Positions 4,544 to 20,006 of a DNA stretch of 64,000 nucleotides are shown one piece after another. The DNA is from Seonamhaeicola aphaedonensis. Lineage in GTDB: Bacteria > Bacteroidota > Bacteroidia > Flavobacteriales > Flavobacteriaceae. Made by a program: the position numbers and the translations under genes. The notes under the pieces are model-generated. The model saw only the letters and a list, made by a program, of their open reading frames with translations. It was not told the DNA's origin and did no database searches. The stretch covers positions 682,001 through 746,000 of the forward strand of contig NZ_QRDX01000001.1 in the NCBI RefSeq assembly GCF_003386195.1, given 5' to 3'. Position 1 is the first letter of the stretch. Each line of letters begins with the position of its first letter.

Positions 4544-5277
4544 AGTAGGGTCTTGGGTTATGAAAATTGTTGAGCGTACATTTTAATATTAAATTGTATA
4601 TAAAACTTCAAAATTAATTACATAAAGTAGTTAATCTTTAAACATAAAGTGTGTTAATTTTATAGCTACAGATGAACCAAAATCTGAATTTATTTATGGG
4701 ATTGAATTAAATCTTTTTATAATTTAAAAGACAGGTGAGTTGATTATTTTTGAATAATTATAGGTTGGAGTAACTCAAATTGATCAAATAGATTTTGAAA
4801 TTGTTAGTAGATTAAAAAAATACAAATCAGAACTAAAATTTGAGATATCAATAAATTTAATTTGTACTTGTAATGGCCATAATTTTATTCTTATGTATTG
4901 GTATTATAGATGTTGTTTGCTAAAACAAATAATCCCCTCTAATACCAATACATAAGAATAAAGTTCCTTCAATTCGAAGAATTGGGAGGGCTTGTATGTC
5001 GGCTTTAGGAAGGCCTTAAGAAGCTGGCTGATGTTAAGAGGGTTCCCAACGGTTTAATTTAGTAAGATAAACTGATATCCATCATTTTCTTTTTAACCTG
5101 ATAGCACTACATTAGTATAGATTAGAACCTTGCTTGCAGAGTTCTATACAGGTCCGGATTTATGCTTCACCAATTATTTTGGACATCAATCCTGTTGGTA
5201 TATAATAATTTTAGAAAAATTCTAAAACAATACTGTAATGGAAATTATAATTTACATTTTAAACACCATATATTTAA
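4544..5277. other. Gene-poor region with decayed coding remnant and inverted repeat
   Basis: No intact gene of useful size. Around 4668-4860 short stretches read like protein when frames are switched (ATDEPKSEFIYGIELNLF, then QIDQIDFEIVSRLKKYKSEL), each cut by stops, as in a small decayed gene. A perfect 23-bp inverted repeat sits at 4884-4962. A short hairpin (TTTTAGAA-AAA-TTCTAAAA) at 5209-5227 lies 50 bases before the next gene and could be part of its control region. The segment at 4965-5060 is richer in G+C than its surroundings, but I could not assign it. Confidence 0.45.
4884..4962. repeat. Perfect 23-bp inverted repeat
   Basis: Arms 4884-4906 and 4940-4962 (TTTATTCTTATGTATTGG... and its exact complement) flank a 33-base loop. 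There is no T-run directly after the right arm, so it is not a standard terminator. It could be the two ends of a small lost element, a protein-binding site or a structured RNA. Confidence 0.8.
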
Positions 5278-6879
5278 ATGACAAAGGTGACTAAACATCT
5301 CATTTCAGCGGTTACACTGCTGTTGTGCATTGGGTTTGTAATTTTCTCATGTGCAAAATTGTATATCAAACAGGATTTCAGACAGATCTATAGAGGGTTT
5401 AACGATTCCATTCATAAAAATTTATATAAAGAGGCCTTTTTTAAAGTACATCTTAAAAATGGTGATGTGAGTCTGTTGAGTGACTGGAGCCTAAATGCTG
5501 AGAGAGATTCGATATTAGGGAATGGAAAGTTGTTTGATTTTAACAGGAATGAACTCAAAGAGGGCCCTCTGGTCCATAATATTGACGATATAGCCATTAT
5601 TGAAACCAATCAGCTAGAAGCCATAAAATCTACGGACAAAGATAAAATTTCAACACTTGCTGTGCTTACGGGAGTAAACCTAATACTTGATGTCGCTTGC
5701 ATTGCCAATCCAAAGGCTTGTTTTGGTTCCTGTCCGACGTTTTATACAGCAAATAGCAATTCTGTTCATGATGCAAAGGCAGAGAGCTTTTCCAGTGCCA
5801 TATCGCCCGCATTGGAAAAAATGGACATGGACGCCCTTAATACACAAACTGGTGGAGGTGAATTTTTCCTAACTATGAAAAATGAAGCCTTCGAAACCCA
5901 TATGTTAAATGAATTGGTGCTAACGGCTATACCTAAGAAAAGCCATGAATTTGTTTTTCATGATCGAAGGTATAAATTTTACAAATCCGATTATACCATA
6001 ACCCCCAGCAGCGCCACAGTTGATGGGACAGATATATTGTGTGACATTTCCAGAATGGATGACCGTGAATTTTTCTCCTATACAGATAAAGATGATCTCA
6101 CAAAAAAAGAAACTATCTATTTGAATTTCGTAGGTATTCAGGATCAACAACAAGGCTTAGTTATTAATTTCAGGCAAAGCTTATTAACTACTTTTTTACT
6201 CTATAATGGATTATCATACATGGGCGATGAGGTAGGAGATTATTTCACTAAAATTGAAACTAATACAACAGTGAAAAATCGATTGAGCAATCCTTTTAAA
6301 TTATTGGGCAACATACAATTGTTTGTATGGGATCATAATAAAGATAAATGGGTATTCTTCGATGCAATCTATGAAACCGGACCCATTTCAAAAAACCTGA
6401 TCATTGCACCCATACCAAAAACATTAGCACATAACCAAGAAGTAAAAATAAAAATAGAACTTACCAAAGGCTTATGGCGTCTAGATTATTTGGGTCTCTC
6501 TGCCATTAGAGAAGTGTCAGATGTAACAAAAATACGACCATCTGAAGTTATGGAGATTCAAGGAGTATCCGGCGGGTTACAGCGTGTCCTCAGTGATGAT
6601 GAGAACTATCTGGTCTCTTTTCCAGGTAATGAATTTGTGTTCAGATTTGAATTGCCTGAACTAAGGCATCAAGATGCCTATGAACTGTTCCTGTCCAGTA
6701 AAGGGTATTATTTAGAATGGATCAGGGCGAACTGGCTTATGGATAAGAATACCTCTAAATTGGAGAAGATGCTTTCCAATGATCCCGGTACCTGGAAGTT
6801 ACTGGCAAAAGAATATAAAGTGGTAGAACACCAAATGGAACGCGTGTTCTGGAACTCAAAATACGGTGATATTCAATAA
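5278..6879 (+). CDS. Predicted lipoprotein of unknown function, 533 residues
   Basis: The N-terminus is hydrophobic and ends in a lipobox-like IFSC (Cys about residue 28), so it is probably a lipoprotein. A second hydrophobic patch (STLAVLTGVNLILDVACI) is followed by a conserved-looking cysteine motif CFGSCPTFYT near residue 150, where the two Cys may form a disulphide. The remainder is soluble, mixed alpha/beta, with no catalytic motif I recognise. It is followed after 2 bases by a second lipoprotein, so the two probably work together at the outer membrane. I cannot name the family. The ATG at 5278 is supported by the signal sequence right after it. Confidence 0.7.
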   Translation: MTKVTKHLISAVTLLLCIGFVIFSCAKLYIKQDFRQIYRGFNDSIHKNLYKEAFFKVHLKNGDVSLLSDWSLNAERDSILGNGKLFDFNRNELKEGPLVHNIDDIAIIETNQLEAIKSTDKDKISTLAVLTGVNLILDVACIANPKACFGSCPTFYTANSNSVHDAKAESFSSAISPALEKMDMDALNTQTGGGEFFLTMKNEAFETHMLNELVLTAIPKKSHEFVFHDRRYKFYKSDYTITPSSATVDGTDILCDISRMDDREFFSYTDKDDLTKKETIYLNFVGIQDQQQGLVINFRQSLLTTFLLYNGLSYMGDEVGDYFTKIETNTTVKNRLSNPFKLLGNIQLFVWDHNKDKWVFFDAIYETGPISKNLIIAPIPKTLAHNQEVKIKIELTKGLWRLDYLGLSAIREVSDVTKIRPSEVMEIQGVSGGLQRVLSDDENYLVSFPGNEFVFRFELPELRHQDAYELFLSSKGYYLEWIRANWLMDKNTSKLEKMLSNDPGTWKLLAKEYKVVEHQMERVFWNSKYGDIQ

Positions 6880-6881
6880 TT

Positions 6882-7391
6882 ATGAAAAGCACCTTTAACA
6901 TACTCGTCGTATTGATATGCTTCATCCAGGGATGCAGTTCTCCTAAATATTTGTCCACGCCAAAGGATTTCCAAAATAATGTCAAGGGGCTTTATTTTAA
7001 ATGCCATTATGAAAAAAACTACGCAAAAATTATCGGCGAAATCATTGAAGTTAGTGATAGCCGTATCAAACTATTGCCTGTAGAAAAAGGGGCAAAAATG
7101 ATTAGCATAGATAGAAATGCTATTGAAGAGGCTGAAATTATGATATCACTATCTGTAGACAATCCAAAGAAAATCGATACTTGGGCCAGTTTGCTAAATG
7201 CAACTTCAATTGGGCATGGGTTCTGGGGGGTAATTACCCTTCCGGTCAATATTGGGGTCTCAGCAGGGATCAATTCAAAAAATGTGTACTGGATGAAATA
7301 CCCCGAACACATCAAATGGGATCAACTTCATAAGTATGCAAGATTCCCCCAGGGTATTCCTAAAGCTATAGATGAAACCCTTATTCAATAA
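6882..7391 (+). CDS. Small predicted lipoprotein, unknown function
   Basis: 169 residues. Signal peptide with lipobox IQGC (MKSTFNILVVLICFIQGCSS). The middle (IIGEIIEVSDSRIKLLPVEKG) has the look of a small beta-barrel or Sm-like strand set. A hydrophobic glycine-rich segment follows (SIGHGFWGVITLPVNIGVSAGI), then an aromatic C-terminal tail with KYARFPQGIP, a tail type I associate with uncharacterised flavobacterial lipoproteins. It lies 2 bases after the 533-residue lipoprotein gene, so co-expression is likely. Function unknown. Confidence 0.7.
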   Translation: MKSTFNILVVLICFIQGCSSPKYLSTPKDFQNNVKGLYFKCHYEKNYAKIIGEIIEVSDSRIKLLPVEKGAKMISIDRNAIEEAEIMISLSVDNPKKIDTWASLLNATSIGHGFWGVITLPVNIGVSAGINSKNVYWMKYPEHIKWDQLHKYARFPQGIPKAIDETLIQ

Positions 7392-7743
7392 ACAAACAAG
7401 TATACCAATTAATAAGTTAAAAATATTTATCCTTGTTGACGGATGGCCAATGTATGTTAAGAAAACCTAGTCCTCTTTCTTTTCGAAATCTGATGGATTA
7501 AATATGGCCTATAGAAAGCTTTTAATTCTGTCTATCTTCTTTAAGTATCAAATACAAATAAATACGAGGAACTAAAAATCTAAGGATATTTAATCTTAAC
7601 CTTTAAACATTTTGGACGAAATATGAACTAGGTATAAAACAAAAAGCCTCAATGAATTAATCTTCTATTTTTAATGTTTTTATTTTGAGGAAAAAAAGGA
7701 AAAATCTTCCAATCATACACAAATTGTACATTTTACAAATGCA

Positions 7744-7784
7744 AAAATCCGCAAAAGCTATATGTTTAGCTAATTACGGATTTT
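7744..7784 (-). terminator. Hairpin after tRNA remnant
   Basis: Outer stem AAAATCCG/CGGATTTT and inner stem AGCTA/TAGCT, followed on the minus strand by TTTTTGC. It sits just where the terminator of a minus-strand tRNA would be, and seems to have survived the loss of the tRNA's 5' half. Confidence 0.6.
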
Positions 7785-7791
7785 ATCTGTA

Positions 7792-7839
7792 CTCAAGGTG
7801 GAAATCGAACCAGTGACCTTCGGGTTATGAGCTCTGCGT
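7792..7839 (-). pseudogene. 3' half of a tRNA (CAT anticodon loop onward)
   Basis: On the minus strand the sequence CTCATAACCCGAAGGTCACT then GGTTCGATTTCCACC reads as anticodon loop CTCATAA, 3' anticodon strand, variable loop and T-loop TTCGATT. The 5' side of the anticodon stem does not pair (GCAGAG against CCCGA), and no D-arm is present upstream. The last 22 bases resemble the 3' end of the tRNA-Leu at 26752 (one mismatch). So it is a broken, perhaps chimeric, tRNA, cut at the anticodon loop. Confidence 0.65.
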
Positions 7840-8074
7840 CCTTATTTTTTTAACCTCATTTACTGGGCTTATAAGCCCTTGTTTTATAAAACTCATTTTG
7901 CTAAACACTGGATTCTTTTAGAAAATGTATTTCTACGAATTACCAAAACTATTTACCATTAATTTACAGATTAGGATTTCTATTGTAGAAATATATACTC
8001 TAATTTGATGGACTATCTAACAGATAGAACTTAAAATTCATTGAATGATAAACATCTCCATTTTTCACACATAA

Positions 8075-8704
8075 TTAACTACTCGCCAAAGCAAGACCAT
8101 CAGTAGCTGATGCATCTTTTGGTTTGTTGAGTAATACTTTTTGAAACAAATCTTTTGCTTCCTTTTTATTTCCAAGCTTAAGCTTTGTCCATGCATAGAT
8201 TAACAAGCCATCGTAATCAAATGGGTACAAATCTACAATTTGTTTAAAGTAGGTTATTGCCTTGTCATATTGCAAGCGGTTATAATAAATGGTACCCAAA
8301 TAATACATGGCTTTTGTATTATGAGGTGAGTTTTCTAAAATTTGGTTGTATACCGCTATAACCTCATCCCAACGTCCTAAAGCAGTTAAAGGGAAAATAT
8401 AGCCAAATTTAGGCTCATCTGCATAAGGCATCAGTTCCATAGATTTTTGATAAAATGCTATAGATTCGTTAAAACTGCCTGCCATATAATTTAGCCAACC
8501 TAAGCGTAAATTAATTTCATAAGTATCTTCTTGGTATACCGTTTTTAGTTCGTTGATGGCTAATTGAAAGTCACCATTGCCTTCTAAGGTATAACTCTTT
8601 CTAAAGGCGTCATGTAGTTCTGTAAAATTCTGCTGAGCAAATATATAAGACGTTCCAAAAAAGGTAAATATACCAATGACTATTGTTTTTCCTAAAGTAC
8701 CCAT
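8075..8704 (-). CDS. Secreted TPR protein, last gene of the PqqD/ATP-grasp operon
   Basis: 209 residues with a signal peptide (to about residue 24, SYIFAQ). Almost the whole mature part is built of tetratricopeptide repeats: INLRLGWLNYMAGSFNESIAFYQKS, AMYYLGTIYYNRLQYDKAITYF and LLIYAWTKLKLGNKKEAKDLF are good TPR helical pairs. TPRs bind peptides or other proteins; here in the periplasm. The start overlaps the end of the outer-membrane protein gene by 13 bases, so the two are translationally linked and probably form one complex. No enzymatic motif. Confidence 0.8.
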   Translation of the reverse strand: MGTLGKTIVIGIFTFFGTSYIFAQQNFTELHDAFRKSYTLEGNGDFQLAINELKTVYQEDTYEINLRLGWLNYMAGSFNESIAFYQKSMELMPYADEPKFGYIFPLTALGRWDEVIAVYNQILENSPHNTKAMYYLGTIYYNRLQYDKAITYFKQIVDLYPFDYDGLLIYAWTKLKLGNKKEAKDLFQKVLLNKPKDASATDGLALASS

Positions 8705-9972
8705 GTGATTGCTGCTGTTATATTTTGTTGATTAAAATCGAAGGTTTTTGATGTTATTTCAAAATTAGCTTTATAATAATTGGCTTCCATGTTCATAAAT
8801 GAATAGCCTAATTTTAATACTAAATATTTCCCGAAATATTTAAATGAACCACCAAATTCGTTTAATGCAGTTGCGGGCTGATTGTAAACTATAGCCCCTT
8901 TATTGGCAATAAAGTTATTCATATTGCCTACAGTTCCAAAACCAGTTAGTGCAATTTTATTTAGTGTTACTGCCAGACCTGCTGTAAAAACCATGTTGGA
9001 TTTTGAATCTTGACTTTTGTATTGTAGCGACCCAAAAGGTACCAATTCTGTGCTTCCTAAAGGATATAACGACATCGCATAACCCATTTGAAATTGATTA
9101 AAACCATTTAAATTTGAAACCGACATATTGATACTGCTTTTAATTAAATAGGACGCCTTAGTTATCGCACCACCAAAAACCATATTGTTATACTTAATTT
9201 TTGAATCTGATGTTACTGTATTCAGATTATCGTAATCTCCAAAAATGGCATTTAAATAGGTATCTAAATACCATCTATTGCCAAGTGCAATCGTTACGTT
9301 ACCATAATAGCGATATTCCATTACTTTATAGGTTTCATTTTGTAAAACACTTCCTGCGTTTGTTTGCTGTACAGAATTAGCAGGCACCAAAGTAAACTGA
9401 TGAAATAGATTTAGTCCTTTTGATATGGGATGACTCATAGCTAAAGAATACATTTGGTAATTTTCAGGAATAATACGAAAATGATCTGTCTGTCCATTAG
9501 CATTCGATTTTAGCTGCGTATCGTAATCTAAATTGTTAGCTGCCAAAACATTAAAGCTAATGCTACTTACAACCGGCAAATCGAGCTTTATTTTATCTTT
9601 TAATGCTTTTGACATTTTAGAGTAAAATAAACGACTTTCCATTTCTAATCCGCTATAACGATAGGCCCAATACAAATAGTCTTGTACCACAACGTTTTTT
9701 GAATCTAAAGCATAGGCTTCTTCTAAAAACTGAATGGCACTAAACATTTTATTTTCTTTAAAATACGCTATTCCTATTCTTACTTTTAAGTAGTAGAAAT
9801 CAACTCCCTCTGCTATAGATTGTTTTCCCAATGTTATAATTGGTTTCCAATCTTGTTTTAAAAATAAGGCATAGGTCGTACTATCTACATCCTTAATCGA
9901 TAATGGCTTTTTTTGTGCACTAACCGCTGTTACAAACCACAAAAGTACTATGCACACAAAGTGTTTTTCCAT
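8692..9972 (-). CDS. TPR domain plus outer-membrane beta-barrel protein
   Basis: 426 residues. Signal peptide MEKHFVCIVLLWFVTAVSAQ. Residues about 25-130 are TPR-like helices (YLKVRIGIAYFKENKMFSAI, DYLYWAYRYSGLEMES). From about 140 to the end the chain is a series of amphipathic beta strands typical of a barrel of a dozen or so strands, ending in NQQNITAAITWVL. It is probably a pore or anchor in the outer membrane with a periplasmic TPR docking arm. It overlaps the transporter-peptidase gene by 25 bases and the downstream TPR gene by 13. It could carry the operon's product, or a subunit, to the outside; this is inference. Confidence 0.75.
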   Translation of the reverse strand: MEKHFVCIVLLWFVTAVSAQKKPLSIKDVDSTTYALFLKQDWKPIITLGKQSIAEGVDFYYLKVRIGIAYFKENKMFSAIQFLEEAYALDSKNVVVQDYLYWAYRYSGLEMESRLFYSKMSKALKDKIKLDLPVVSSISFNVLAANNLDYDTQLKSNANGQTDHFRIIPENYQMYSLAMSHPISKGLNLFHQFTLVPANSVQQTNAGSVLQNETYKVMEYRYYGNVTIALGNRWYLDTYLNAIFGDYDNLNTVTSDSKIKYNNMVFGGAITKASYLIKSSINMSVSNLNGFNQFQMGYAMSLYPLGSTELVPFGSLQYKSQDSKSNMVFTAGLAVTLNKIALTGFGTVGNMNNFIANKGAIVYNQPATALNEFGGSFKYFGKYLVLKLGYSFMNMEANYYKANFEITSKTFDFNQQNITAAITWVL

Positions 9973-12158
9973 TTTAATATTATTTTGGATTTTTTGGAAG
10001 TATCACATTGTATATTAATTTCTCTGTTTTTATGTACTACTATTTCTGCCGAAAAAAGTGATACCTCATGATGTCCTACTATTTTAGACTTAAATCCAAT
10101 TTTTTCAGGATTAAAAGTTTGTTCAGATTCTATATATGAAAGTTTATAATTTCCTTTTAAAAAAATACCGAAAGGCACTAAAAAGTCTTGAATGGTTATC
10201 ACTGGAAAGCGATATAAATGATGTACTGGAAATCTGGTCGCCACCGAAAGTTCAGAGTGTTCACTTAAAACCACTTTATACAAACTACTATAGAAATAAA
10301 ACAAGGCACTTTTTTTAGAACCTATATAATTTAATGCCGAAAATGTTTTACCATTATTTTCATAATATAATTTTGCATTGGTGTTTAAACAATTTAAAAA
10401 GGATTGGTTATATATATCAATTTCATTTCTTATTGTAAATAGTACTGGCTTGTTAAATGCATTAGCCATACTTAATTGAAACTCATCTCCCGGACTCCAT
10501 TTAAAAGCTGATTGTAAAATTGGCGAGATTGAAATATTTAACAGTTTATCCTGTTCTTTTGGAATCCCTTTTGGAACAAAATGTAACTTAGACGCATTGT
10601 CTACTAGATACTCTGATAAAGGCCAAAATAATGTTGTTGCCCCAATTTTTGAAGTACTTTGTAATTGAAAATGCAAATGCGGATATGGGGAACGCCCAGA
10701 ATTACCACATCTACCAATATACTGTCCTTCAACCACAACATCTCCAATATTAACTTCTATAGAGCCCTTTTTTAAATGACTTAGTTTTGAAAATAAATAA
10801 TTTTCGTGTTGCAGCACAACCGTATTCCCCCAATTTTGCAATGTGTTTGTTGCTCCTATTTCATTATCTTCAACCGTGTTAAGTACATTAACAACAGTCC
10901 CTAATGCTGGTGCCACAACAGGCTTATCATAACAGTAATAATCAGTTACCAACAAACCCTCTCCACTAAACTCTTTACTTGAAGCCTCGTCCTTAATAAT
11001 AAAGTCCCAGGCAAAACGGAAAAAGTCTTTATGGGTATATTTCCCATTATGTGCTTGATTAACCGTCCATTTTCCCATAAAAGGTAATCGAATTGGTACT
11101 GTAAATGCTGCATATTTTTTAGCCGGCTGACTGTCGAATAAATAAGCATTAGTTTCGGGGTTTTTTAGATGAACCAGCGTTAAAATTGGTCCCTTTGTTT
11201 GATCATAACGAATTTTTAAGGCGTACAACACACCTATCATTATCACATTAAAAGGTAAAGAGTATGCCGATAATTCAAAATACATAAAAAGACGATCTGA
11301 ACCTATTGTAGTTACAACCAATACTGGGATTAATAACAAGCTCAACAAAAAAGATTGTCTTGATGGAATTAAAAAATAACCACCAATCGCAATTGCCGAA
11401 AGAATAAAATTAAACCCATAATAGGTGTAATTTAAAGAACCTGTATACATTCCTAAATAGGAATACATTCCATAAGCCACAAAAAAGCCAACTAGTGATA
11501 ACAGAAAATTCACTCTAGAATGAATTAACAAGCCTAATGATATCATTACTCCGGATAGTATATTAAACTGAAAGAAAATAGCGCCAAGAGACAAAAAATA
11601 GGTATCAAAACCTGTGTCTTCAAAAAGGAAACTTAGATCTTCCATCACAGAAACGAGAACATCTCCACCCATTTTAAAATACATATTAGATGGGTATAAT
11701 GTTTCCATATTTAATGCCACATTAGTAAACGATGGAAATGCCAAAAGCAATAACCACATGCCTACTAAAAACGGAATACTTAAAAAGGGTATACCGTATT
11801 TAGCAAAAATTCCCATAAAAAATACAGTACTAAAAAAGGCAATTGCTGCTCCTGCAACAATAAGCAAAAGGACTTCTAGTCCTGGTGCAAAATAAGTACC
11901 AATACCTAATCCCACCAATAAGGCATTAAAACTGTACAGTCCTTTTTCTGTTGTGATTTCTGAATAATCAAATAGTTGAGCTAAAGCAATGGCTGTTAAA
12001 ACAGCAATTAAACCGCTTAAACCTGTCCACCATTCCATAAAACTAACTACTATTAAAATTGAAGCTAAAATTTTATTTTCTGTGAAAAAAATTTGAGAAT
12101 AGCTCGTTAGTGTTGCTTCTAAAAGAAACTTACTTTTTTTTAATAGCTTGTCTGTCAT
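9948..12158 (-). CDS. Urea-transporter domain fused to M23 metallopeptidase
   Basis: 736 residues, two known families in one chain. Residues 1-315 contain about ten membrane spans with urea-transporter features: YSFNALLVG (75-83), IPFLSIPF (123-130, the LPxxTxPF-type signature) and the repeat YGFNFILSAIAIGGYF (247-262). Residues about 345-530 are an M23/LytM-like endopeptidase: THKDFFRFAWDF with Asp385, NWGNTVVLQH, LSHL with His461 and PYPHLHFQL with His494/His496 as zinc or catalytic residues. A beta-rich tail follows to residue 736. The position of the first zinc His (370 or 376) should be checked. The channel may carry a small polar compound, while the peptidase faces the periplasm. It overlaps both neighbours, in the operon's centre. 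Confidence 0.85.
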   Translation of the reverse strand: MTDKLLKKSKFLLEATLTSYSQIFFTENKILASILIVVSFMEWWTGLSGLIAVLTAIALAQLFDYSEITTEKGLYSFNALLVGLGIGTYFAPGLEVLLLIVAGAAIAFFSTVFFMGIFAKYGIPFLSIPFLVGMWLLLLAFPSFTNVALNMETLYPSNMYFKMGGDVLVSVMEDLSFLFEDTGFDTYFLSLGAIFFQFNILSGVMISLGLLIHSRVNFLLSLVGFFVAYGMYSYLGMYTGSLNYTYYGFNFILSAIAIGGYFLIPSRQSFLLSLLLIPVLVVTTIGSDRLFMYFELSAYSLPFNVIMIGVLYALKIRYDQTKGPILTLVHLKNPETNAYLFDSQPAKKYAAFTVPIRLPFMGKWTVNQAHNGKYTHKDFFRFAWDFIIKDEASSKEFSGEGLLVTDYYCYDKPVVAPALGTVVNVLNTVEDNEIGATNTLQNWGNTVVLQHENYLFSKLSHLKKGSIEVNIGDVVVEGQYIGRCGNSGRSPYPHLHFQLQSTSKIGATTLFWPLSEYLVDNASKLHFVPKGIPKEQDKLLNISISPILQSAFKWSPGDEFQLSMANAFNKPVLFTIRNEIDIYNQSFLNCLNTNAKLYYENNGKTFSALNYIGSKKSALFYFYSSLYKVVLSEHSELSVATRFPVHHLYRFPVITIQDFLVPFGIFLKGNYKLSYIESEQTFNPEKIGFKSKIVGHHEVSLFSAEIVVHKNREINIQCDTSKKSKIILKWKNTLCA

Positions 12159-13507
12159 TAGTTTTGAAGGTAATCTGGTACTAATTCTTGTCTTCTGAAT
12201 ACTTCTTTGTTTTCTTGCTTTCTAATTAAATGCACTTTTTCATTTTGATCAATTAGAACAATATTTGGTCTATAGGTTATAAACTGCATCCACTGTGTCA
12301 TTGTATAGGCTCCCACTCTTTTAATCACAAAGTGGTCTCCTTTGTTTAGCATCGGAAAATCAATATTTTTTCTAACGATATCGATATTCATACATAGAGG
12401 TCCATAAATGGTCGTTGGTTCAGATTGATAACTAGATTCGTGAACCGGATAAATTTCATAATCATACCAAAACGAAGTAAACATTAAATTAACACCAGCG
12501 TCAATAACCATAGATCTTCGCCCGTCGGCTAAACGTTTATTTGCCATTATGGTTCCTGCCAACCAACCAGCGTCATCAATTAACGCACGGCCAGTTTCTA
12601 AAATAAGCATTGGTGTTTCATTATTTGGAAAATCGGCAGCTGTCATAGCGGTTGTAATGGCATGAGCATAATCATCAAAACTAGGTGTAGTATCAGTGGC
12701 TGGCATATAAGCTCCTTGTAAGGTATTTTGAGATGCGAACCCTCCACCAACATCTATGTAACCTATGCTTTTTTGAAAACGATTATAGGTTTTATTAGCT
12801 AAAGCTGCTAATTTTTCAATGGCAACTGCATAAGGTTTAGAAATAGTAATATAGGTGCCAATATGAACGTGTAAACCTATAAAATCCATCTTTTTGCTAG
12901 ACAAAATACGGTTGATAGCATTCCAAGCTTCACCATTTTCATAATTAAATCCGAAACGATCCCATTGTGGAATAATACCAGTATCCATGTTCACACGAAT
13001 TGCTACTTGGGGTCGTTCTTTAAGTTGATCCATTAAACTTAAAATCATGTATAATTCATCAAAATGATCAATATGAATAAGAGATTTGTTGTTAATTGCT
13101 TTTACTAAATCTTCCTCACTCTTATCAGGACCGTTAAAAATTATTTTATTTCCAGGTATATTGTTGTCAATCGCTTTTTCATATTCAAATCCTGAAACAA
13201 CTTCTGCCCAAGCTCCTTCTTGATGAAAAATTCGGCATACTGCATCTAAATAATTTGTTTTATAAGACCATGCAAATTGTACTTTTGGGTATCGCGTGGA
13301 AAACGCTCGATATGCATTTTTGTAGGTATCTCTAATCGTTTTTTCTGAAAGAACAAACACAGGCGAACCATATTCTTCAATAAGACTATCAATCTCTACA
13401 TTATCAATGGTGCTAATTGGTCGTAACCTCTTTAAACTTCCAAATTTATTGGGAATACCTTCTACTACTTTTCGTAATAATGGACGCTCATATATTCTTT
13501 TGTTCAT
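12158..13507 (-). CDS. Fold-type III PLP-dependent decarboxylase (LysA/BtrK-like)
   Basis: 449 residues, the usual length. Alanine-racemase-like barrel followed by a decarboxylase beta domain. The PLP lysine is K83 in AWSYKTNY; HVHIG (213-217), the phosphate-binding VGGGFA (253-258) and ETGRAL (304-309) follow; the catalytic cysteine of the diaminopimelate/ornithine decarboxylase group appears as GPLCMNID (C372), with Met where DapDC usually has Glu. That change and the context argue against lysine biosynthesis. It would decarboxylate a basic or acidic amino acid, free or attached to a carrier, as BtrK does in butirosin synthesis. Its stop overlaps the start of the transporter-peptidase; the ATP-grasp gene is 11 bases upstream. 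Confidence 0.85.
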   Translation of the reverse strand: MNKRIYERPLLRKVVEGIPNKFGSLKRLRPISTIDNVEIDSLIEEYGSPVFVLSEKTIRDTYKNAYRAFSTRYPKVQFAWSYKTNYLDAVCRIFHQEGAWAEVVSGFEYEKAIDNNIPGNKIIFNGPDKSEEDLVKAINNKSLIHIDHFDELYMILSLMDQLKERPQVAIRVNMDTGIIPQWDRFGFNYENGEAWNAINRILSSKKMDFIGLHVHIGTYITISKPYAVAIEKLAALANKTYNRFQKSIGYIDVGGGFASQNTLQGAYMPATDTTPSFDDYAHAITTAMTAADFPNNETPMLILETGRALIDDAGWLAGTIMANKRLADGRRSMVIDAGVNLMFTSFWYDYEIYPVHESSYQSEPTTIYGPLCMNIDIVRKNIDFPMLNKGDHFVIKRVGAYTMTQWMQFITYRPNIVLIDQNEKVHLIRKQENKEVFRRQELVPDYLQN

Positions 13508-13518
13508 CTTATTTAGTT

Positions 13519-14562
13519 TTATAGTTCTCCAAAAATTACTATTTTCTCAAAATCAGCTATATCTCCTATTAAATCCCACGAATACCGAATAAACATTTTA
13601 CCGTATTTATAGGTTGTTATTGGTTCTACTTTTTCTCCCATAGCTAAACGACATACCATTTCTGGGATGTTTTGTCCTGCTCCTACAGCTAAAAATACCC
13701 AAGCTGGTATACGCGGATTAATTTCTATTAAATAATACTCTCCTTCATCGGTTTTTATCATTTCGAGCTCCATAGCTCCTCTCCATTTTGTTTCTTTAAT
13801 AATATGATGAGTAATTTCAAGCAAGCGCTCATCATTTAATGTTATGCCTCCCCAAGCTTTTCCTTTGTCAGTGATATATTGTTTACGCATAGCAACTGCC
13901 GAGACCGTATTTCCTTCTCCATCACCCAAAGCAATCACATTGACTTCGGTACCATTGATAGCTTGTTGAACAACTACTGGAAGTCCCCATTTTGCAGAAA
14001 GTTTATTAAAATAATATATTCCTTGATTGTTATTTACCACTTTAAATGCTTCATAAAATTTACCTTTTATAAAGTAAGGGTAAGACAGTGGTTTAGGTAA
14101 ATTAGAAAGTTCTTTACTATTTACTATTGGCCTACTTTCTGGCACTTTAATTCCATACTTTTTAGCATATTCGGGCAAATTATCTTTATGGCGTTCTTCA
14201 AACTGTTCCATTGTTGGTAAAAACGTATGAATGCCCATTTCTAATAATTTATCACTGAATTTTATAAATAAATACAATTCAGAATCGAAATTTGGAATAA
14301 TAATATCTAACTTTTCTTTGCTGTGTATGTATTCTAAACGCTCAAGAAATGCCTCGCTACCAGTTGAGGGAAATGGTATTAAATAGGTTTTATCTACTAA
14401 TCCAGGCATATAAATACCAGGTTCTAAATTCTCGTAAGCCAAACCTATAATTCTAGCATCTATTTCTGACTCCTTTATTCCACGAATTACAGAAACTCCT
14501 GGTCCTGGACTATCAATATTGTTAAGACCAGTTACTCCTATGGTTAGTTTTTTTTGCTCCAT
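13519..14562 (-). CDS. ATP-grasp ligase
   Basis: 347 residues with the carbamoyl-phosphate-synthase-like ATP-grasp fold. The pre-ATP domain starts with KLTIGVTGLNNIDSPGPGVS; the ATP-grasp part includes YPYFIKGKFYEAF (161-173, nucleotide lysine), QQAINGTEVNVIALGD (199-214) and the metal-binding LIEINPR (278-284, E280 and N282). Such enzymes join a carboxylate, through an acyl-phosphate, to an amine or thiol. Between a PqqD-like protein and a PLP decarboxylase it probably attaches an amino acid to a peptide or carrier, as BtrJ does. Substrates cannot be read from the sequence. It is 6 bases after the PqqD gene. Confidence 0.85.
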   Translation of the reverse strand: MEQKKLTIGVTGLNNIDSPGPGVSVIRGIKESEIDARIIGLAYENLEPGIYMPGLVDKTYLIPFPSTGSEAFLERLEYIHSKEKLDIIIPNFDSELYLFIKFSDKLLEMGIHTFLPTMEQFEERHKDNLPEYAKKYGIKVPESRPIVNSKELSNLPKPLSYPYFIKGKFYEAFKVVNNNQGIYYFNKLSAKWGLPVVVQQAINGTEVNVIALGDGEGNTVSAVAMRKQYITDKGKAWGGITLNDERLLEITHHIIKETKWRGAMELEMIKTDEGEYYLIEINPRIPAWVFLAVGAGQNIPEMVCRLAMGEKVEPITTYKYGKMFIRYSWDLIGDIADFEKIVIFGEL

Positions 14563-14568
14563 GATGTT

Positions 14569-14808
14569 TTAGTCTAGCATTTTTTCACGTTTCAAAAAGT
14601 CTAAATACTCATATAAATCGCGTCCTGCAGAAATAGCATCGATATCAAATTCTTCTGTAATTACAGAAATTATTTCATCAGCAGATTTTCCTTCTTTTAA
14701 AAGATTTATAATCATTAAACCTATTTCATTTGTGGTAAATGACTCACCAGTAGAAGGTTTGAAAATAAATCCATTATCGCTTATTGCTAGTGAATTTAAT
14801 TTGCTCAT
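14569..14808 (-). CDS. PqqD-like small peptide-binding protein
   Basis: 79 residues. Pattern matches PqqD/RiPP recognition elements: a first strand pair (LAISDNGFIFKPSTGESFTT), a helix (EIGLMIINLLKEGKSADEI) and the winged-helix end ISVITEEFDIDAISAGRDLYEYLDFL. No phosphopantetheine DSL motif, so it is not an acyl carrier protein despite the size. PqqD-type proteins hold a precursor peptide for a modifying enzyme; here the partner would be the ATP-grasp ligase 6 bases downstream. No radical-SAM gene and no precursor peptide gene was found in the operon. It is the first gene, with ATG at 14808 after a 265-base untranslated gap. Confidence 0.75.
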   Translation of the reverse strand: MSKLNSLAISDNGFIFKPSTGESFTTNEIGLMIINLLKEGKSADEIISVITEEFDIDAISAGRDLYEYLDFLKREKMLD

Positions 14809-14900
14809 TTTTTAATTTTTTTGATTGTAAGTTCTTGTTTTACAGAGCACTGAATGAAGTATTAAAGTTAGTTAATAAAGCTCATTTTTTGTGCTACAAA

Positions 14901-14921
14901 TGTTACACTTGTTCTGTCACA
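14901..14921. promoter_or_regulatory. Possible operator before the PqqD operon
   Basis: TGTTACA and TGTCACA, 7 bases apart, form an inverted repeat with one mismatch, about 95 bases before the PqqD start. Within it the minus strand reads AACATTTG, one base off the TAnnTTTG box. A regulator could sit over the promoter. Weak evidence. Confidence 0.3.
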
Positions 14922-15073
14922 TTAATTAGGAAGGGTTGATTTTTTAAATCAGAATCTGGATTTAAGAAGCTAGAGTATAGAAAGTTTTAAACGTTGAGGG
15001 TTTAGGCTTTCTTTTTTGATATCTTAAGCCGAAAGCAAAATAAATATCTAATGCGTTGAACGTTAAGAATTGA

Positions 15074-15940
15074 TTAAGAGTTGCCCATTATTCTAGATCC
15101 TTTACGAATAATTTTTCTACTCTCTTTACCTTTGACTATTAAACCGCTATCCTCTAACCATACTATGGCACCAGTAGGACATCTCTGAATAGGTTTTTGT
15201 GTGTTATGATTTTCAGAATAATTAATTACGGGTAAATTATTTTTCATAGTAATTAACTCACCAGGGGCATCCATGGCACATTTACCACAGGCGGTACAAC
15301 CCACCTGACAATCTTCAAGAATGGCTTCGCCTTGTTCAAGATTTTTACATGCTACCCAAAGTTTATGACTTATAGGTTGAAGGGAAAATAAGTCTTTAGG
15401 GCAAACCTCTACACAGTCACCACAGGCTGTACATTTCTCGATATCAATTATAGGGAGACCATACTCGTTCATGGTAATGGCATCAAAATCGCAAACAGAT
15501 TCACAATCACCATGGCCAAGGCAACCCCAAAAACAGCCTTTACCTCCTCCAGAAACCAGATTAGCGGCTTGACAACTTTGAACACCAACATACTGAGCTC
15601 TATTAATAGCAACATTCGTCCCACCGGCACAAGCGAGACGCGCAACTTGTTTTTCTTCAGCTCCTAAAGCAACACCAAGAAATTCTGCTATAGACTGCCT
15701 ACCTTCATCTGAACTCACGGTACATTTTCCAGGTAAAGATTTTTTAAGAACCAATGCCTCCGCGAACGGCCTACACCCCGGGTACCCACAAGCACCACAA
15801 TTAGCATGAGGCAACATGTCTTCCACTTTGTCTATTCTTGGATCTTCATAGACAAATAGCTTTTTGTTTGCAACAATTAGCATTATTGCAAGAAGTAAGG
15901 TTAGGCCTCCTAGTGCGGCAATGGCAATAACAATGGACAT
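15074..15940 (-). CDS. rnfB: Rnf complex subunit RnfB (ferredoxin-binding Fe-S protein)
   Basis: 288 residues. One N-terminal membrane helix (IAIAALGGLTLLLAIMLIV), then the RnfB-specific 4-Cys motif ANCGACGYPGC, then Cys-rich ferredoxin domains (CFWGCLGHGDCESVC, CTACGDCVEVCP and CTACGKC). It takes electrons from ferredoxin and passes them into the Rnf membrane complex. It lies last in the operon, 48 bases after the reductase-like gene, instead of next to rnfA where many bacteria have it. ATG at 15940. Very clear family match. Confidence 0.95.
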   Translation of the reverse strand: MSIVIAIAALGGLTLLLAIMLIVANKKLFVYEDPRIDKVEDMLPHANCGACGYPGCRPFAEALVLKKSLPGKCTVSSDEGRQSIAEFLGVALGAEEKQVARLACAGGTNVAINRAQYVGVQSCQAANLVSGGGKGCFWGCLGHGDCESVCDFDAITMNEYGLPIIDIEKCTACGDCVEVCPKDLFSLQPISHKLWVACKNLEQGEAILEDCQVGCTACGKCAMDAPGELITMKNNLPVINYSENHNTQKPIQRCPTGAIVWLEDSGLIVKGKESRKIIRKGSRIMGNS

Positions 15941-15988
15941 ATTAACTCATTAATTTAATGAAACATGATTCTCTTTTTTCAGACCAGT

Positions 15989-16846
15989 TTAAAAAATAAT
16001 TTCAGCCCATTTTCTACCGGCAATTAATTCAGCTTTACGTAATCGCCATTTTTCTTCTGAACCTAAAATCTTAGAAAATGATTTATTGAGTTTATCAAGA
16101 ATATTTGCATATCCTGCAACGTAAACATAGGTATTGGACTTAGAAAGCAATTCTTTAATTTCATCTGTTTGCCCTTCAATTGCTTTTTCTAAATCGATTG
16201 AATCTGCCCAATGTGGTCTCGGGCTTAATGCATGAAAAGCCTCAAATGTATCTTTGTCATAATAATTAGTAAGATCACCATCCTTATCATTTAAATATAG
16301 TAGCTCTAAGCCACTTCGAGCGCCGTAAAACAATCTTATTTTACCTTCCCAATCTTTCACATTTTTATAGATATGTTTGATAAAAGCACGGAAAGGAGCA
16401 ATACCGGTACCCATACCAATGAGTATCATATTAGCCGCTTTATCTTCCGGAATTTTAAATGGTAATTGAAACGGACCGGTAAGTGTAATTTCATCACCTT
16501 TTTTACGATTGCATAAATAATGTGAAGCAACACCCTTATATTCTTCACCATTGAAATCATCAATATAAGAGCAACGTTTTACTAACATGGTAATTTTAGG
16601 ATTACCATTTACTCGTGCAGGCAAATCAGCTACACTATACAGTCTGTGGTGATGCGTGTTTCCAAAATCACTAGTTACTTTTACCAATACACCAAAGCTT
16701 TGGTCTACTTCGCATTTAAATTCTGGATCTTTCACTTCCAATACAATCTCACGTACTTCCTCAGTGTCTTGAGGTGTTAATCGAGAGGTTTTTTTTACAA
16801 CTGCTTTATACCTTTTTTCGGTATCAAAATCTAATAAATGTGCCAT
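15989..16846 (-). CDS. FAD-dependent NAD(P)H:ferredoxin/quinone reductase-like protein
   Basis: 285 residues, no signal or membrane segment. Ferredoxin-NADP+ reductase fold: FAD motif RLYSVA (68-73), nucleotide motif GMGTGIAPFRAF (144-155) and the C-terminal YVYVAGYANILDKL (NAD(P)-side CG motif position) with an aromatic end. Located inside the rnf cluster, it may exchange electrons between ferredoxin and NAD(P)H, or act as an additional electron entry site like NqrF, whose Fe-S domain it lacks. It is 28 bases after the small Cys protein. FNR fold is sure; the partner is inference. Confidence 0.85.
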   Translation of the reverse strand: MAHLLDFDTEKRYKAVVKKTSRLTPQDTEEVREIVLEVKDPEFKCEVDQSFGVLVKVTSDFGNTHHHRLYSVADLPARVNGNPKITMLVKRCSYIDDFNGEEYKGVASHYLCNRKKGDEITLTGPFQLPFKIPEDKAANMILIGMGTGIAPFRAFIKHIYKNVKDWEGKIRLFYGARSGLELLYLNDKDGDLTNYYDKDTFEAFHALSPRPHWADSIDLEKAIEGQTDEIKELLSKSNTYVYVAGYANILDKLNKSFSKILGSEEKWRLRKAELIAGRKWAEIIF

Positions 16847-16874
16847 GTTTATTTTTTATTTTGTTGTTATTTTG

Positions 16875-17078
16875 TTATTCAATAAGGTTTATATTTCCTT
16901 TCTCTTTTCGTTCACAAACCGTGGTACAACCACAGTTTGAGCAACTTCTTCTTCCTGCTAAAACATCGTCTTCGTGATATTCGTCTTTAAACACCTTTTT
17001 CCATAATGTTTGTACAAGCATCCAAAGTATTGCTATTGCTACTATAAAACCAATTCCTATTGTAAGTGATTTAAACAT
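16875..17078 (-). CDS. Small NqrM-like membrane protein with Cys motif
   Basis: 67 residues: one membrane helix (SLTIGIGFIVAIAILWMLV) and a soluble tail with four cysteines, C46, C49, C51 and C55, in the order CSNCGCTTVC. This is the same plan as NqrM, a small one-helix protein with conserved Cys needed for the assembly of the membrane Fe centre in Na+-NQR. It is placed directly after rnfA, and RnfA/RnfE hold the homologous centre between their cysteines. I propose an iron-delivery or assembly role. The identity with NqrM is not certain, as the cysteine spacing must be compared. ATG at 17078, 12 bases after rnfA. Confidence 0.75.
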   Translation of the reverse strand: MFKSLTIGIGFIVAIAILWMLVQTLWKKVFKDEYHEDDVLAGRRSCSNCGCTTVCERKEKGNINLIE

Positions 17079-17090
17079 TTGTTCTTCTTT

Positions 17091-17672
17091 TTAAGCGCCG
17101 AGACCTGCAAATCCCATAAAGCAAAGTGATAAAATACCTGCTATGAACAGGGTTAACGCCGTTCCTTTTGAAATCTTTGGAACGTCAGCAAAGTTTAACT
17201 GTTCTCTTAATCCAGCAATTAATACCAACGCTAACGTAAAACCAGCACCGGCACCAAGCGCATAGACTATACTTTCTAAAAAACCGTATTCTTTATTTGT
17301 TTGAAATAATGCCACACCTAGTATAGCACAATTGGTTGTAATCAATGGAAGGAAAATCCCAAGTGATTTAAATAGTGCGGGACTGATTTTTTTGATAAAC
17401 ATTTCTACTAGCTGAACCGTGGAAGCTATTACAACTATGTAACTAATTAGTTGTAAAAATGGTGCATCAATTGCAACTAAAAATGCATGAATTCCATAAG
17501 CACACATGGAGCTAATTAGCATCACAAACATTACGGCTGCTCCCATTTTTGTAGCCGTTTCCATTTTTCCGGACACTCCTAAAAATGGGCAGATACCTAG
17601 GAAATAGGCCAAAACAAAGTTGTTGACCAAACAGGCATTTAAAAAAATTGCACCTAAAGATTCCGTATTCAT
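17091..17672 (-). CDS. rnfA: Rnf complex subunit RnfA
   Basis: 193 residues, six membrane spans. Typical RnfA/NqrE sequence: ACLVNNFVLAYFLGICPFLGVS at the N-terminus and LPLITTNCAILGVALF in the middle; the Cys residues in these two half-helices (C28-type and C113-type) hold an iron centre together with RnfE. It forms part of the ion-translocating core. Start codon overlaps the end of rnfE by 4 bases. The next gene downstream is the NqrM-like protein. Confidence 0.95.
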   Translation of the reverse strand: MNTESLGAIFLNACLVNNFVLAYFLGICPFLGVSGKMETATKMGAAVMFVMLISSMCAYGIHAFLVAIDAPFLQLISYIVVIASTVQLVEMFIKKISPALFKSLGIFLPLITTNCAILGVALFQTNKEYGFLESIVYALGAGAGFTLALVLIAGLREQLNFADVPKISKGTALTLFIAGILSLCFMGFAGLGA

Positions 17673-18301
17673 GATTTTGTTTTTCTTGTTTGTATCTTAT
17701 TAATTATTAGCAACCAGATGGCCAGTGTAAAAAATCCACCTGCAGGTAGTATCATTACAATCCAACTTTGAAATCCGTTAGGAAACAGAGCGATATCGAA
17801 TAAAGACCCATTACCAAGTATTTCTCTAACAGCGCCTAAGCAAAAGAGAGCGAACGTAAACCCAACACCCATTCCCAAAGCATCAAAAATGGATTTTGAG
17901 ACCGTGTTTTTAGATGCAAAGGCTTCAGCTCTACTTAAAATCAAACAGTTTACTACAATAAGTGAAATGAACGCACCCAAACTTTTATGTAACTCAACAC
18001 TGATGGCTTGAATAGCGTAATCTGTTACCGTCACAAAAGTGGCGATGATGAGAATATAGGAAGCTATACGCACCTGTTTAGGAACAAAATTTCGAAGTAA
18101 GGAGACTAAAATATTCGACATCAATAAAACAAAAGCTGTTGCTAGTCCCATAGCAAGCGCATTTATTGCTGTGTTGGAAACAGCTAATACTGGACACATT
18201 CCCAGTACCTGAACAAATACCGGATTGTCACGCCACAACCCTTTAATAAATTCATCGGTTGAGGTTACCTTTTGCTTTGATGAAGCACTATCATTGCTCA
18301 T
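17669..18301 (-). CDS. rnfE: Rnf complex subunit RnfE
   Basis: 210 residues, six membrane spans. It matches RnfE/NqrD: WRDNPVFVQVLGMCPVLAVSN and ISLIVVNCLILSRAEAFAS carry the two conserved Cys. It pairs with RnfA in an inverted arrangement around the iron centre. The N-terminal 15 residues (SASSKQKVTST) are a short cytoplasmic extension. Its stop overlaps rnfA by 4 bases and it starts 8 bases after rnfG, so translation is probably coupled. Confidence 0.95.
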   Translation of the reverse strand: MSNDSASSKQKVTSTDEFIKGLWRDNPVFVQVLGMCPVLAVSNTAINALAMGLATAFVLLMSNILVSLLRNFVPKQVRIASYILIIATFVTVTDYAIQAISVELHKSLGAFISLIVVNCLILSRAEAFASKNTVSKSIFDALGMGVGFTFALFCLGAVREILGNGSLFDIALFPNGFQSWIVMILPAGGFFTLAIWLLIINKIQTRKTKS

Positions 18302-18309
18302 TATTTCGT

Positions 18310-18990
18310 TTATTTTTTATTATTCTTTTTATAATGATTACTTAGAATTGGAACTAATGTTGTTGAACTTGCCCCAATAATGTCTCCAATAGCTCTTGAA
18401 GAAATTGTGGCTCCAGTGATACCATCAATTTCCCAAGGATTTTGTTTCTCACCCTGTTTTACAGTAATAACTGTGTTGTTTATTTCTTTACTATCTGTTA
18501 AGCTAACATCCAATGCTTTAAAGTTGTTTAGAAATCGTTCGTCCTTTTCAATTTTATCTCCAAGCCCTGGTGTTTCTTTACTTTCTAAAACTTGAAATCC
18601 TATAATTATTTCCTCATCAGGTTTGTACCCATAAAGTATTCTAATAATGTCGGCATAACCTTGACCAGAAGCTTCAATGGCGTATCCTACAATGCTCTTT
18701 TGGTCATCGTATCCAGCATATACAGTTGTTTCTGCTTTTTCCCCTTCCTTAAGATCGAATAATTCCGATTTTTCATTTACACCAAATGCTTGCATACTGG
18801 CTGTTCCTGGTAACACTTCAAAAATTGCTCTTTCAAGAGCTTCAGCCTTTAAACGTTGAACACGCGGAAGTGTTAATTCAAAAGTGGACACAATAAGTAA
18901 TGCACTCATAATACCAATACCTACCATAGCCAGTAACATTTTACTACTACTTGCTGGGTTTTGTGTTTTTATGTTAGCAACTTCACTCAT
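18310..18990 (-). CDS. rnfG: Rnf complex subunit RnfG (FMN-binding)
   Basis: 226 residues, one N-terminal membrane helix (MLLAMVGIGIMSALLIVSTF) and a periplasmic FMN-binding domain. The covalent FMN threonine is T195 in DGITGATISSRA, the modification being made by ApbE, which is not in this window. QGYADIIRILYGY and ETPGLGDKIEKD are the family landmarks. Overlaps rnfD by 4 bases. Length and motifs are normal. Confidence 0.95.
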   Translation of the reverse strand: MSEVANIKTQNPASSSKMLLAMVGIGIMSALLIVSTFELTLPRVQRLKAEALERAIFEVLPGTASMQAFGVNEKSELFDLKEGEKAETTVYAGYDDQKSIVGYAIEASGQGYADIIRILYGYKPDEEIIIGFQVLESKETPGLGDKIEKDERFLNNFKALDVSLTDSKEINNTVITVKQGEKQNPWEIDGITGATISSRAIGDIIGASSTTLVPILSNHYKKNNKK

Positions 18991-20006
18991 GCCGCTTTTA
19001 TTTTTCGTTTGGTTCCATATACCCTATTTTTAATAACGGAATCTATATGAGGAGAAATGGCATTGGCCAGCAGTATAGAATACATAACCCCTTCTGATAA
19101 ACCACCCCAAATTCGTATTACAATTGTTAGAATACCTATTATAGCTCCATACACCCATAATCCGAGTGGTGTAATTGGAGATGAAACCATATCTGTAGCC
19201 ATAAAAACAGCGCCAAGCATTAAGCCTCCTGAAAGTATCATAAATGAAGGTGAAGGATATAACTCACTATTGAATAGATAAAGTATACCACTTAATATAA
19301 AAGCACTCAATAAAACAGCAGCGGGAATTCTCCAAGACATCATATTTCGCGCAATTAAATAGATGCCTCCCAAAGCAATGATAATAGCACAGGTTTCTCC
19401 AGCAGAACCACTTACCTGACCAAAAGCTAACTCCATGGTTGAGGTTGAAACCCCATCAAACTTGAAGGCAGCAAGAGGTGTAGCCCCTGAAATAGCATCA
19501 TATTGAGGTTCCATAAATGGAAACGTAAGTACTGATTTGGAGATAGTTGTGAATCGGTCAACGAGAAATGCTGGATACCAAGTAGTAATAGCTACTGGGA
19601 AAGCTGCCTGTAAAACAGCTCTTGCAACTAATGCAGGATTAAATACATTATAGCCCAATCCACCAAAAATATATTTACCTAAAGCAATTCCAATAACACC
19701 GCCTACAAAAGCCATCCATAGAGGAAAACTTGGAGGTAATGAAAGTCCTAAAAGTATCCCAGTGATTATTGCCGAATAATCATTAACCGTAGTTTCTTTT
19801 TTAGAAAGTTTACATAAAAGATGTTCGGTTAAAACACTGGCGAGTGTAGCAGTAAAAATGACTAATAATGCATTTAAGCCAAAAGCATAGACAGAGAAAA
19901 ATACAACAGGCAATAAAGCCCACACCACATTTCTCATGATGTCTTCTGTACTTCGTCCTTTAACAATATGGGGAGACGAGCTTATGTCTAAAGTCTTTTT
20001 AAGCAT
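18987..20006 (-). CDS. rnfD: Rnf complex subunit RnfD (FMN-binding membrane subunit)
   Basis: 339 residues, about nine to ten membrane spans. The FMN threonine is T176 in ISGATPLAAF, followed by the loop to FGQVSGSAGETCAI. Related to NqrB, which carries covalent FMN in the same way. It starts 8 bases inside rnfC. GYNVFNPALVARAVL and MATDMVSSPITPLG are further landmarks of the family. Part of the ion-pumping core. Confidence 0.95.
   Translation of the reverse strand: MLKKTLDISSSPHIVKGRSTEDIMRNVVWALLPVVFFSVYAFGLNALLVIFTATLASVLTEHLLCKLSKKETTVNDYSAIITGILLGLSLPPSFPLWMAFVGGVIGIALGKYIFGGLGYNVFNPALVARAVLQAAFPVAITTWYPAFLVDRFTTISKSVLTFPFMEPQYDAISGATPLAAFKFDGVSTSTMELAFGQVSGSAGETCAIIIALGGIYLIARNMMSWRIPAAVLLSAFILSGILYLFNSELYPSPSFMILSGGLMLGAVFMATDMVSSPITPLGLWVYGAIIGILTIVIRIWGGLSEGVMYSILLANAISPHIDSVIKNRVYGTKRKIKAA

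Follow-up and report, generated by a model that had tools for sequence, protein, structure and literature searches.

The genome of Seonamhaeicola aphaedonensis carries a run of six tightly packed genes in which putative machinery for modifying an amino acid or peptide lies directly beside a transporter, a peptidase and a predicted outer-membrane barrel, raising the question of what such a gene set makes and where its product goes. We analysed this run within a 64,000-nucleotide stretch of contig NZ_QRDX01000001.1 (hereafter the window). A prediction made from the letters of the window alone (the original prediction) had placed six closely spaced minus-strand genes at 8075–14808, and a check of the open reading frames bore this out: six ORFs, all on the minus strand, occupy exactly this position, separated by gaps of 6 and 11 bases or overlapping by 1, 25 and 13 bases.

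A conserved six-gene cassette in Bacteroidota

The most upstream gene (14569–14808, minus strand) encodes a PqqD-like protein of 79 amino acids (aa), and the profile check that had been set beforehand for it returned PF05402 at 40.2 bits against a cut-off of 23.4. It is followed on the same strand by an ATP-grasp ligase of the CPS/PylC-like group (13519–14562, 347 aa; ATPgrasp_Ter PF15632, 38.5 bits, cut-off 29.1) and by a PLP-dependent decarboxylase of the alanine-racemase fold, or fold III (12158–13507, 449 aa; Orn_Arg_deC_N PF02784, 98.9 bits, cut-off 23.4; Orn_DAP_Arg_deC PF00278, 46 bits, cut-off 23). With these scores the first three identities in the original prediction held, as did the absence of a radical-SAM enzyme among the six cassette proteins in the Pfam search. 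The fourth gene, also on the minus strand (9948–12158), encodes a 736-aa protein joining a urea transporter (UT) domain (PF03253, 187.1 bits, cut-off 25) to a peptidase of family M23 (PF01551, 54.8 bits, cut-off 28.7), here called UT-M23. The predicted fusion of a transporter with a peptidase was thus correct, and the Pfam and structure matches now specify the former as a UT fold and the latter as M23. The remaining two minus-strand genes encode a predicted outer-membrane beta-barrel with N-terminal TPR-like helices (8692–9972, 426 aa), recognized from its predicted structure, and a 209-aa protein with Pfam TPR repeats (8075–8704). Pfam assigned a family above curated cut-offs to five of the six proteins, the barrel being the exception; in NCBIfam none of the six reached a model cut-off among the matches listed (for the TPR protein, the best 25 of 27).

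We then examined 67 loci selected through their ATP-grasp gene, 26 from other genomes of a 296-genome sample of the phylum and 41 named loci, two sets that may share species. Gene content was judged in the 47 loci with at least 300 bases upstream and at least 6,800 bases downstream of that gene. Using profiles built partly from the same loci, we detected the PqqD-like protein and the decarboxylase in all 47, UT-M23 in 46, the barrel in 45 and the TPR protein in 44, with the complete set, in fixed order, in 44. The barrel belonged to the same family as that of the window in 32 loci and to a second barrel-like family (C7), judged from its sequence to be a barrel as well, in the other 13; some matches were weak, at 47–71 bits in L039, L052 and L053 and at 28 bits for C7 in L054. 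Profile searches found no TPR protein in L054, nothing past the decarboxylase in L069, and neither barrel nor TPR protein in L029 (genome G005), where the UT and M23 parts lie in two ORFs, either a natural split or a frameshift.

The ATP-grasp protein was present in 27 of the 296 phylum genomes, that of the window included. A search for the UT family in the same 296 genomes was positive in 35, where the UT frame was long in 26 (535–769 aa), split in G005 (365 aa) and stand-alone in eight (280–308 aa). The genomes with UT-M23, 26 fused and one split, were exactly the 27 with the ATP-grasp protein (Fisher's exact test, p 7e-39). Carriers of the cassette are many and scattered across Bacteroidota, the nearest named genome being that of Seonamhaeicola sediminis (L055), whose ATP-grasp protein is 100% identical; Lutibacter citreus is another of the named carriers. 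The gene-neighbourhood check, set beforehand, therefore agreed with the prediction that the genes are conserved as a unit. This joint conservation excludes a chance arrangement, and we regard it as nearly certain that the six genes form a real, conserved functional unit.

A ligase and a decarboxylase proposed to act in series

In the PqqD-like protein, residues G13, F16, G21 and N27 are invariant in all 57 aligned sequences, and the protein is expected to adopt the peptide-binding fold of the RRE type. The ATP-grasp ligase, which matches ATPgrasp_Ter and CPS-like models in Pfam and NCBIfam, has K166, E265, E267, E280, N282 and R284 invariant in 64 of 64 sequences, and the catalytic motifs of both enzymes are retained throughout the alignments. 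A PqqD-family protein beside an ATP-grasp enzyme is also found in graspetide clusters and in RiPP clusters where the PqqD/RRE protein is discrete, but the cassette differs from these in containing a decarboxylase and a UT channel, and no conserved precursor ORF was found beside it. The absence of a precursor gene had been predicted, and a scan for ORFs of 20–140 aa within 1.5 kb upstream and 1.2 kb downstream found no precursor-like family among the 14 largest. Most small ORFs that recur beside the cassette lie opposite other genes, and the most numerous set among them runs antisense to PqqD genes.

The ligase and the decarboxylase also occur within single proteins. A Bacteroidales metagenome-assembled genome (L088) encodes both in one 835-aa frame, which could be an assembly error in such a genome. 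On a plasmid of Streptomyces zaomyceticus (L141:7998–10274), one gene encodes a protein of 758 aa that combines a distantly related ATP-grasp part (27.8% identity, with 85% of the query aligned, E 2e-26; 24.2 bits in Pfam, where the cut-off is 29.1) with a decarboxylase part over the Pfam cut-offs (31.8 and 28 bits). The loop of the decarboxylase part, SCMEND, is of the Cys-Met type. The union of the two enzymes in one protein argues for consecutive steps. No PqqD match was found on this one plasmid, in a search run with no positive control; the gene after the fusion encodes 195 aa with no Pfam family at E 0.001.

The same two enzyme superfamilies act in series in butirosin biosynthesis, where BtrJ is the ATP-grasp ligase, and the original prediction had used BtrJ/BtrK as its comparison. 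The parallel between the two enzyme pairs stands, but among solved structures the decarboxylase is nearest to 7kh2, the N-citrylornithine decarboxylase FigC/FslC (198.6 bits), then to diaminopimelate (DAP) decarboxylases (137 bits and below), with BtrK near 90 bits. Butirosin further relies on a carrier protein, BtrI, alongside the fold-III decarboxylase BtrK (excerpts of PMC7857480), whereas no acyl carrier family was matched among the six cassette proteins (Pfam, NCBIfam), which include the PqqD-like protein instead. FigC/FslC, with which SbnH and AcsE are grouped, belongs to rhizoferrin synthesis; it shares the Cys-Met motif with the cassette decarboxylase and acts on an amino acid that is already conjugated (excerpts of PMC7857480).

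In the cassette enzyme, K83, C372, M373, I375, Y401 and Q405 are each present in 62 of 62 aligned sequences. Excerpts of the same source describe an Asp in ornithine, arginine and DAP decarboxylases (ODC, ADC, DAPDC) that touches the side-chain amine of the substrate. In a pairwise alignment this Asp corresponds to M373, and T344, W347 (62 of 62) and Y348 of the specificity helix stand at positions that hold Asp, or Arg in DAPDC, in other members. The replacement of Asp by M373, taken with T344, W347 and Y348, fits a conjugated substrate. From M373 and W347, together with I375 and Q405, we infer that the enzyme may act on a conjugated amino acid whose distal group is neutral or hydrophobic. 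Conjugation followed by decarboxylation is the order that we favour, by a little over even chances.

A urea-channel fold with a predicted cytosolic peptidase

The predicted structure of UT-M23 (pLDDT 89) comprises a UT part at about residues 1–343, an M23 part at about 343–532 and a beta-rich C-terminal part. Residues 1–343 form a complete UT fold, with a Z score of 36 to dvUT (3k3f/3k3g) and a further match to UT-B, and the M23 part reaches Z scores of up to 14.4 to LytM/M23 endopeptidases. We aligned 55 UT-M23 sequences of 680–770 aa, that of the window included and shorter ones omitted. H376, D385, H461, H494 and H496, which we take to be the zinc ligands and catalytic His residues of M23, are present in all 55.

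In UT channels the loop that joins the two halves is on the outer side (excerpts of PMC4357013), and with this loop outside and ten membrane segments the C-terminus would be cytosolic. Across the alignment, loops predicted to be inside carry on average 10.1 Lys and Arg residues against 2.1 for those outside; the inside count is the higher in 55 of 55 proteins, and in 52 of 55 when the termini are left out, and five stand-alone UTs show the same positive-inside bias. No further helix of transmembrane length follows the UT part in the model. Cysteine makes up 1.01% of the M23/C-terminal part, against 0.14% of the barrel and 0.13% of the TPR protein; the values for the decarboxylase, the ATP-grasp ligase and the PqqD-like protein are 0.67%, 0.38% and 0.32%, and Cys409 of UT-M23 is found in 55 of 55 sequences. 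Of seven other M23 proteins read in the same genome, six contain 0–0.5% cysteine and one (L136) 1.06%; the latter, of 228 aa and with no obvious signal peptide, is perhaps another cytosolic M23 protein.

The positive-inside pattern, the topology of UT channels and the cysteine content together indicate that the M23 domain is probably cytosolic, and thus, by this prediction from charge bias and cysteine, not in the extracytoplasmic location expected of M23 peptidoglycan endopeptidases. A cytosolic M23 peptidase is unusual. The original prediction, in which the last three genes move or trim a product across the envelope, is in its trimming part probably wrong, given the charge bias and the UT topology.

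The UT part departs from known urea channels at its selectivity filter. In dvUT the filter residues named are E187, T130 and T294 (excerpts of PMC4357013), to which we matched positions 193, 127 and 300 of UT-M23 by motif. Position 193 is E or Q in none of the 55 proteins, position 127 is S in 51 and T in 2, and position 300 is T in 4, while the two filter leucines are kept in 54 and 48 of the 55. The cassette protein thus has the fold and the Pfam family (PF03253) of a urea transporter and lacks the urea filter residues. Stand-alone UTs of Bacteroidota retain E or Q together with both threonines in all five compared (of eight such proteins, seven had loci, and L098 and L099, with a wrong or broken frame, were left out).

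Urease was found in 10 of the 296 genomes, 1 of the 27 with the cassette and 9 of the 269 others (p 1.0), and in 5 of the 8 genomes with a stand-alone UT as against 1 of the 27 cassette genomes (p 0.0009); the cassette UT does not track urease. Compared with dvUT, UT-A and UT-B, with which it shares the complete fold, the cassette protein is thus set apart by its fusion to M23, its changed filter residues and the absence of a urease link. UT channels examined to date are tight, measuring about 2–3 Å at the constriction (excerpts of PMC10541013), so that for a peptide or a bulky amine the pore would have to be wider.

A model for the cassette and the direction of transport

The barrel protein begins with a signal-peptide-like sequence and is modelled with a pLDDT of 91. 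Its residues at about 133–426 match the TodX, CymA, FadL and OmpG channels (Z about 19–20) and its helices at about 24–128 match TPR arrays (Z about 14); uptake channels predominate among the closest solved folds. The barrel fold and the N-terminal TPR-like helices recall these channels and the TPR-barrel exporter BcsC, but the likeness is one of fold only, the cassette barrel having no sequence family match. The TPR protein is probably periplasmic, its N-terminus looking, by eye, like a signal peptide in the window protein and seven homologues.

The genes, their conservation, the ATP-grasp/decarboxylase fusion, the active-site residues, the altered filter and the predicted topology were all computed here, and they can be assembled into the following model. 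In the cytosol, the PqqD-like protein would present a peptide, or serve as an adaptor, to the ATP-grasp enzyme, which would spend ATP on linking an alpha-amino acid, through its side chain or its amine, to a carboxylate. From this conjugate the fold-III enzyme would then strip the free alpha-carboxylate, in the way that FigC decarboxylates N-citrylornithine. At the UT-type channel of the inner membrane, the M23 domain on the cytosolic mouth may release or trim the product; the channel, with its altered filter, would let it through into the periplasm, and from there the TPR protein and the TPR-barrel would carry it over the outer membrane.

The order of the enzymes, the peptide tether, the trimming and export rather than import are parts of the model that we infer. 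That the cassette as a whole makes and moves a small decarboxylated product in this way is a tentative proposal, to which we give somewhat less than an even chance. Its most far-reaching form, a new class of biosynthesis and export in which a conjugated amine is made by a PqqD-guided ligase/decarboxylase pair and is then released by a UT fold with a cytosolic metallopeptidase and exported via the TPR-barrel, is more doubtful. With respect to the original prediction, the operon, the gene identities and the conservation remain; the UT-fold transporter, the FigC-like decarboxylase and, as the largest change, the predicted cytosolic location of the M23 domain are what differs.

Direction is not readable from sequence, and we consider export an evenly balanced call. 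UT proteins are passive channels, which suits a cassette working the other way round: the UT channel would admit a small urea- or amide-like solute, the ATP-grasp enzyme would ligate it and the decarboxylase finish it, with the barrel and the TPR protein as the outer uptake pore. The likeness of the barrel to FadL, TodX, CymA and OmpG and the predicted position of the M23 domain on the same side as the enzymes speak for such import and modification, but the filter departs from that of urea channels, there is no link to urease, and a biosynthetic pair with a PqqD protein more usually feeds an exported product. We consider import rather unlikely.

Flanking genes and further alternatives

Proteins that look secreted and end in type IX-like tails (C6; a Pfam match for the tail in the one member scanned, the others assigned by eye) occur in 16 of the 67 loci (L034, L036–L038, L040, L042, L045–L047, L075–L077 and L086–L089). 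In 14 of these 16 the gene lies at most 181 bases upstream of the PqqD gene or, in one case, overlaps it; in L047 it lies downstream. This proximity would fit a role in which the PqqD-like protein, the ligase and the decarboxylase attach an amine to a secreted protein that the envelope genes then handle. Such protein or cell-surface modification is nevertheless quite improbable, given that C6 is confined to those 16 loci, that its members have, by eye, at least two different N-terminal parts, that the gene upstream in the window is RnfB, and that no protein can get through a UT channel.

In 8 of the 67 loci (L068, L072, L073, L078, L079, L083, L084 and L093), the cassette is preceded on its own strand by the gene of a small regulator with an AraC-type domain. 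Among 92 of 94 flanking proteins (a list without C6, C7, proteins longer than 900 aa and proteins at the ends of loci), type IX tails were found in nine and AraC-type domains in seven, the others being scattered. The flanking genes vary, and no pathway is named by them.

A siderophore enzyme as the nearest relative of the decarboxylase, together with RND efflux genes (C9) inside the fetched stretch in 6 of the 67 loci, could point to a metallophore, a citrate-free relative of the polycarboxylate siderophores exported via the UT channel and the barrel. Docking suggested that H357 and R387 of FigC contact citrate (excerpts of PMC7857480). The cassette enzyme shares the Cys-Met motif with FigC in 62 of 62 sequences, but in a pairwise alignment these two residues fall on I375 and Q405, again in 62 of 62 each. 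The partner enzyme is an ATP-grasp ligase, not an NIS synthetase, a family with no match among the six proteins in Pfam or NCBIfam, and metal-linked neighbours are present in few loci, which leaves a metallophore improbable. Finally, the intact metal-ligand motifs of M23 and its likeness to LytM/M23 endopeptidases would suit a periplasmic peptidase that breaches the wall to admit a trans-envelope pore, or that serves wall turnover, beside a urea channel, but the charge bias and cysteine content that put M23 in the cytosol, and a complete UT part with no later transmembrane-length helix, make this the least credible reading.

The cassette appears to have a history distinct from its surroundings. 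The block at 7789–15009 is 95.8% identical in DNA to S. sediminis, compared with 90.4% for the adjoining Rnf region; in a congener (G298) the Rnf region is 82.7% identical and the cassette was unmatched in the stretch fetched; and the ATP-grasp gene is present in two of seven genomes of the genus. The identity contrast, the absence in G298 and this patchy presence suggest that the cassette was gained laterally. Just past the cassette, 28 bases (7805–7832) reproduce without mismatch a segment of a tRNA-Met gene located elsewhere in the same genome (G000:C1:417430–417457) and might be the remnant of an attachment site.

Directly upstream, on the same strand, lies an Rnf-type electron transport operon (15074–21357), with rnfA, B, C, D and E over the NCBIfam cut-offs, rnfG just under, and RnfB matching TIGR01944 at E 2e-25. 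RnfB occurs in three of the seven genomes of the genus, both cassette genomes being among the three. Viral contigs and phages yielded no relative of the cassette, and plasmids the one distant ATP-grasp match described above and no decarboxylase match at 1e-40. In a defence-system library the sole match, a weak one, was to TPR (E 0.0003), no RNA family reached its gathering score in 5000–19000, and neither promoters (31 against a shuffle mean of 37.5) nor terminators (6 against 4.4, sd 2.2) were in clear excess.

Significance

We found no description of the cassette in the literature searched, which included excerpts of PMC12710340, PMC8939145, PMC8503589, PMC10541013 and PMC4357013. If the make-and-move model is true, the cassette would represent a widespread metabolite system of Bacteroidota, carried by 27 of the 296 genomes sampled and undescribed as far as our searches reach. 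It would also give the PqqD family a role that involves neither a radical-SAM enzyme nor a precursor encoded alongside. The urea-channel fold would have been turned to a different solute and fitted with a peptidase at its mouth. To our knowledge, no UT-family channel has so far been tied to a biosynthetic pathway and to a product other than urea, and this one would be the first.
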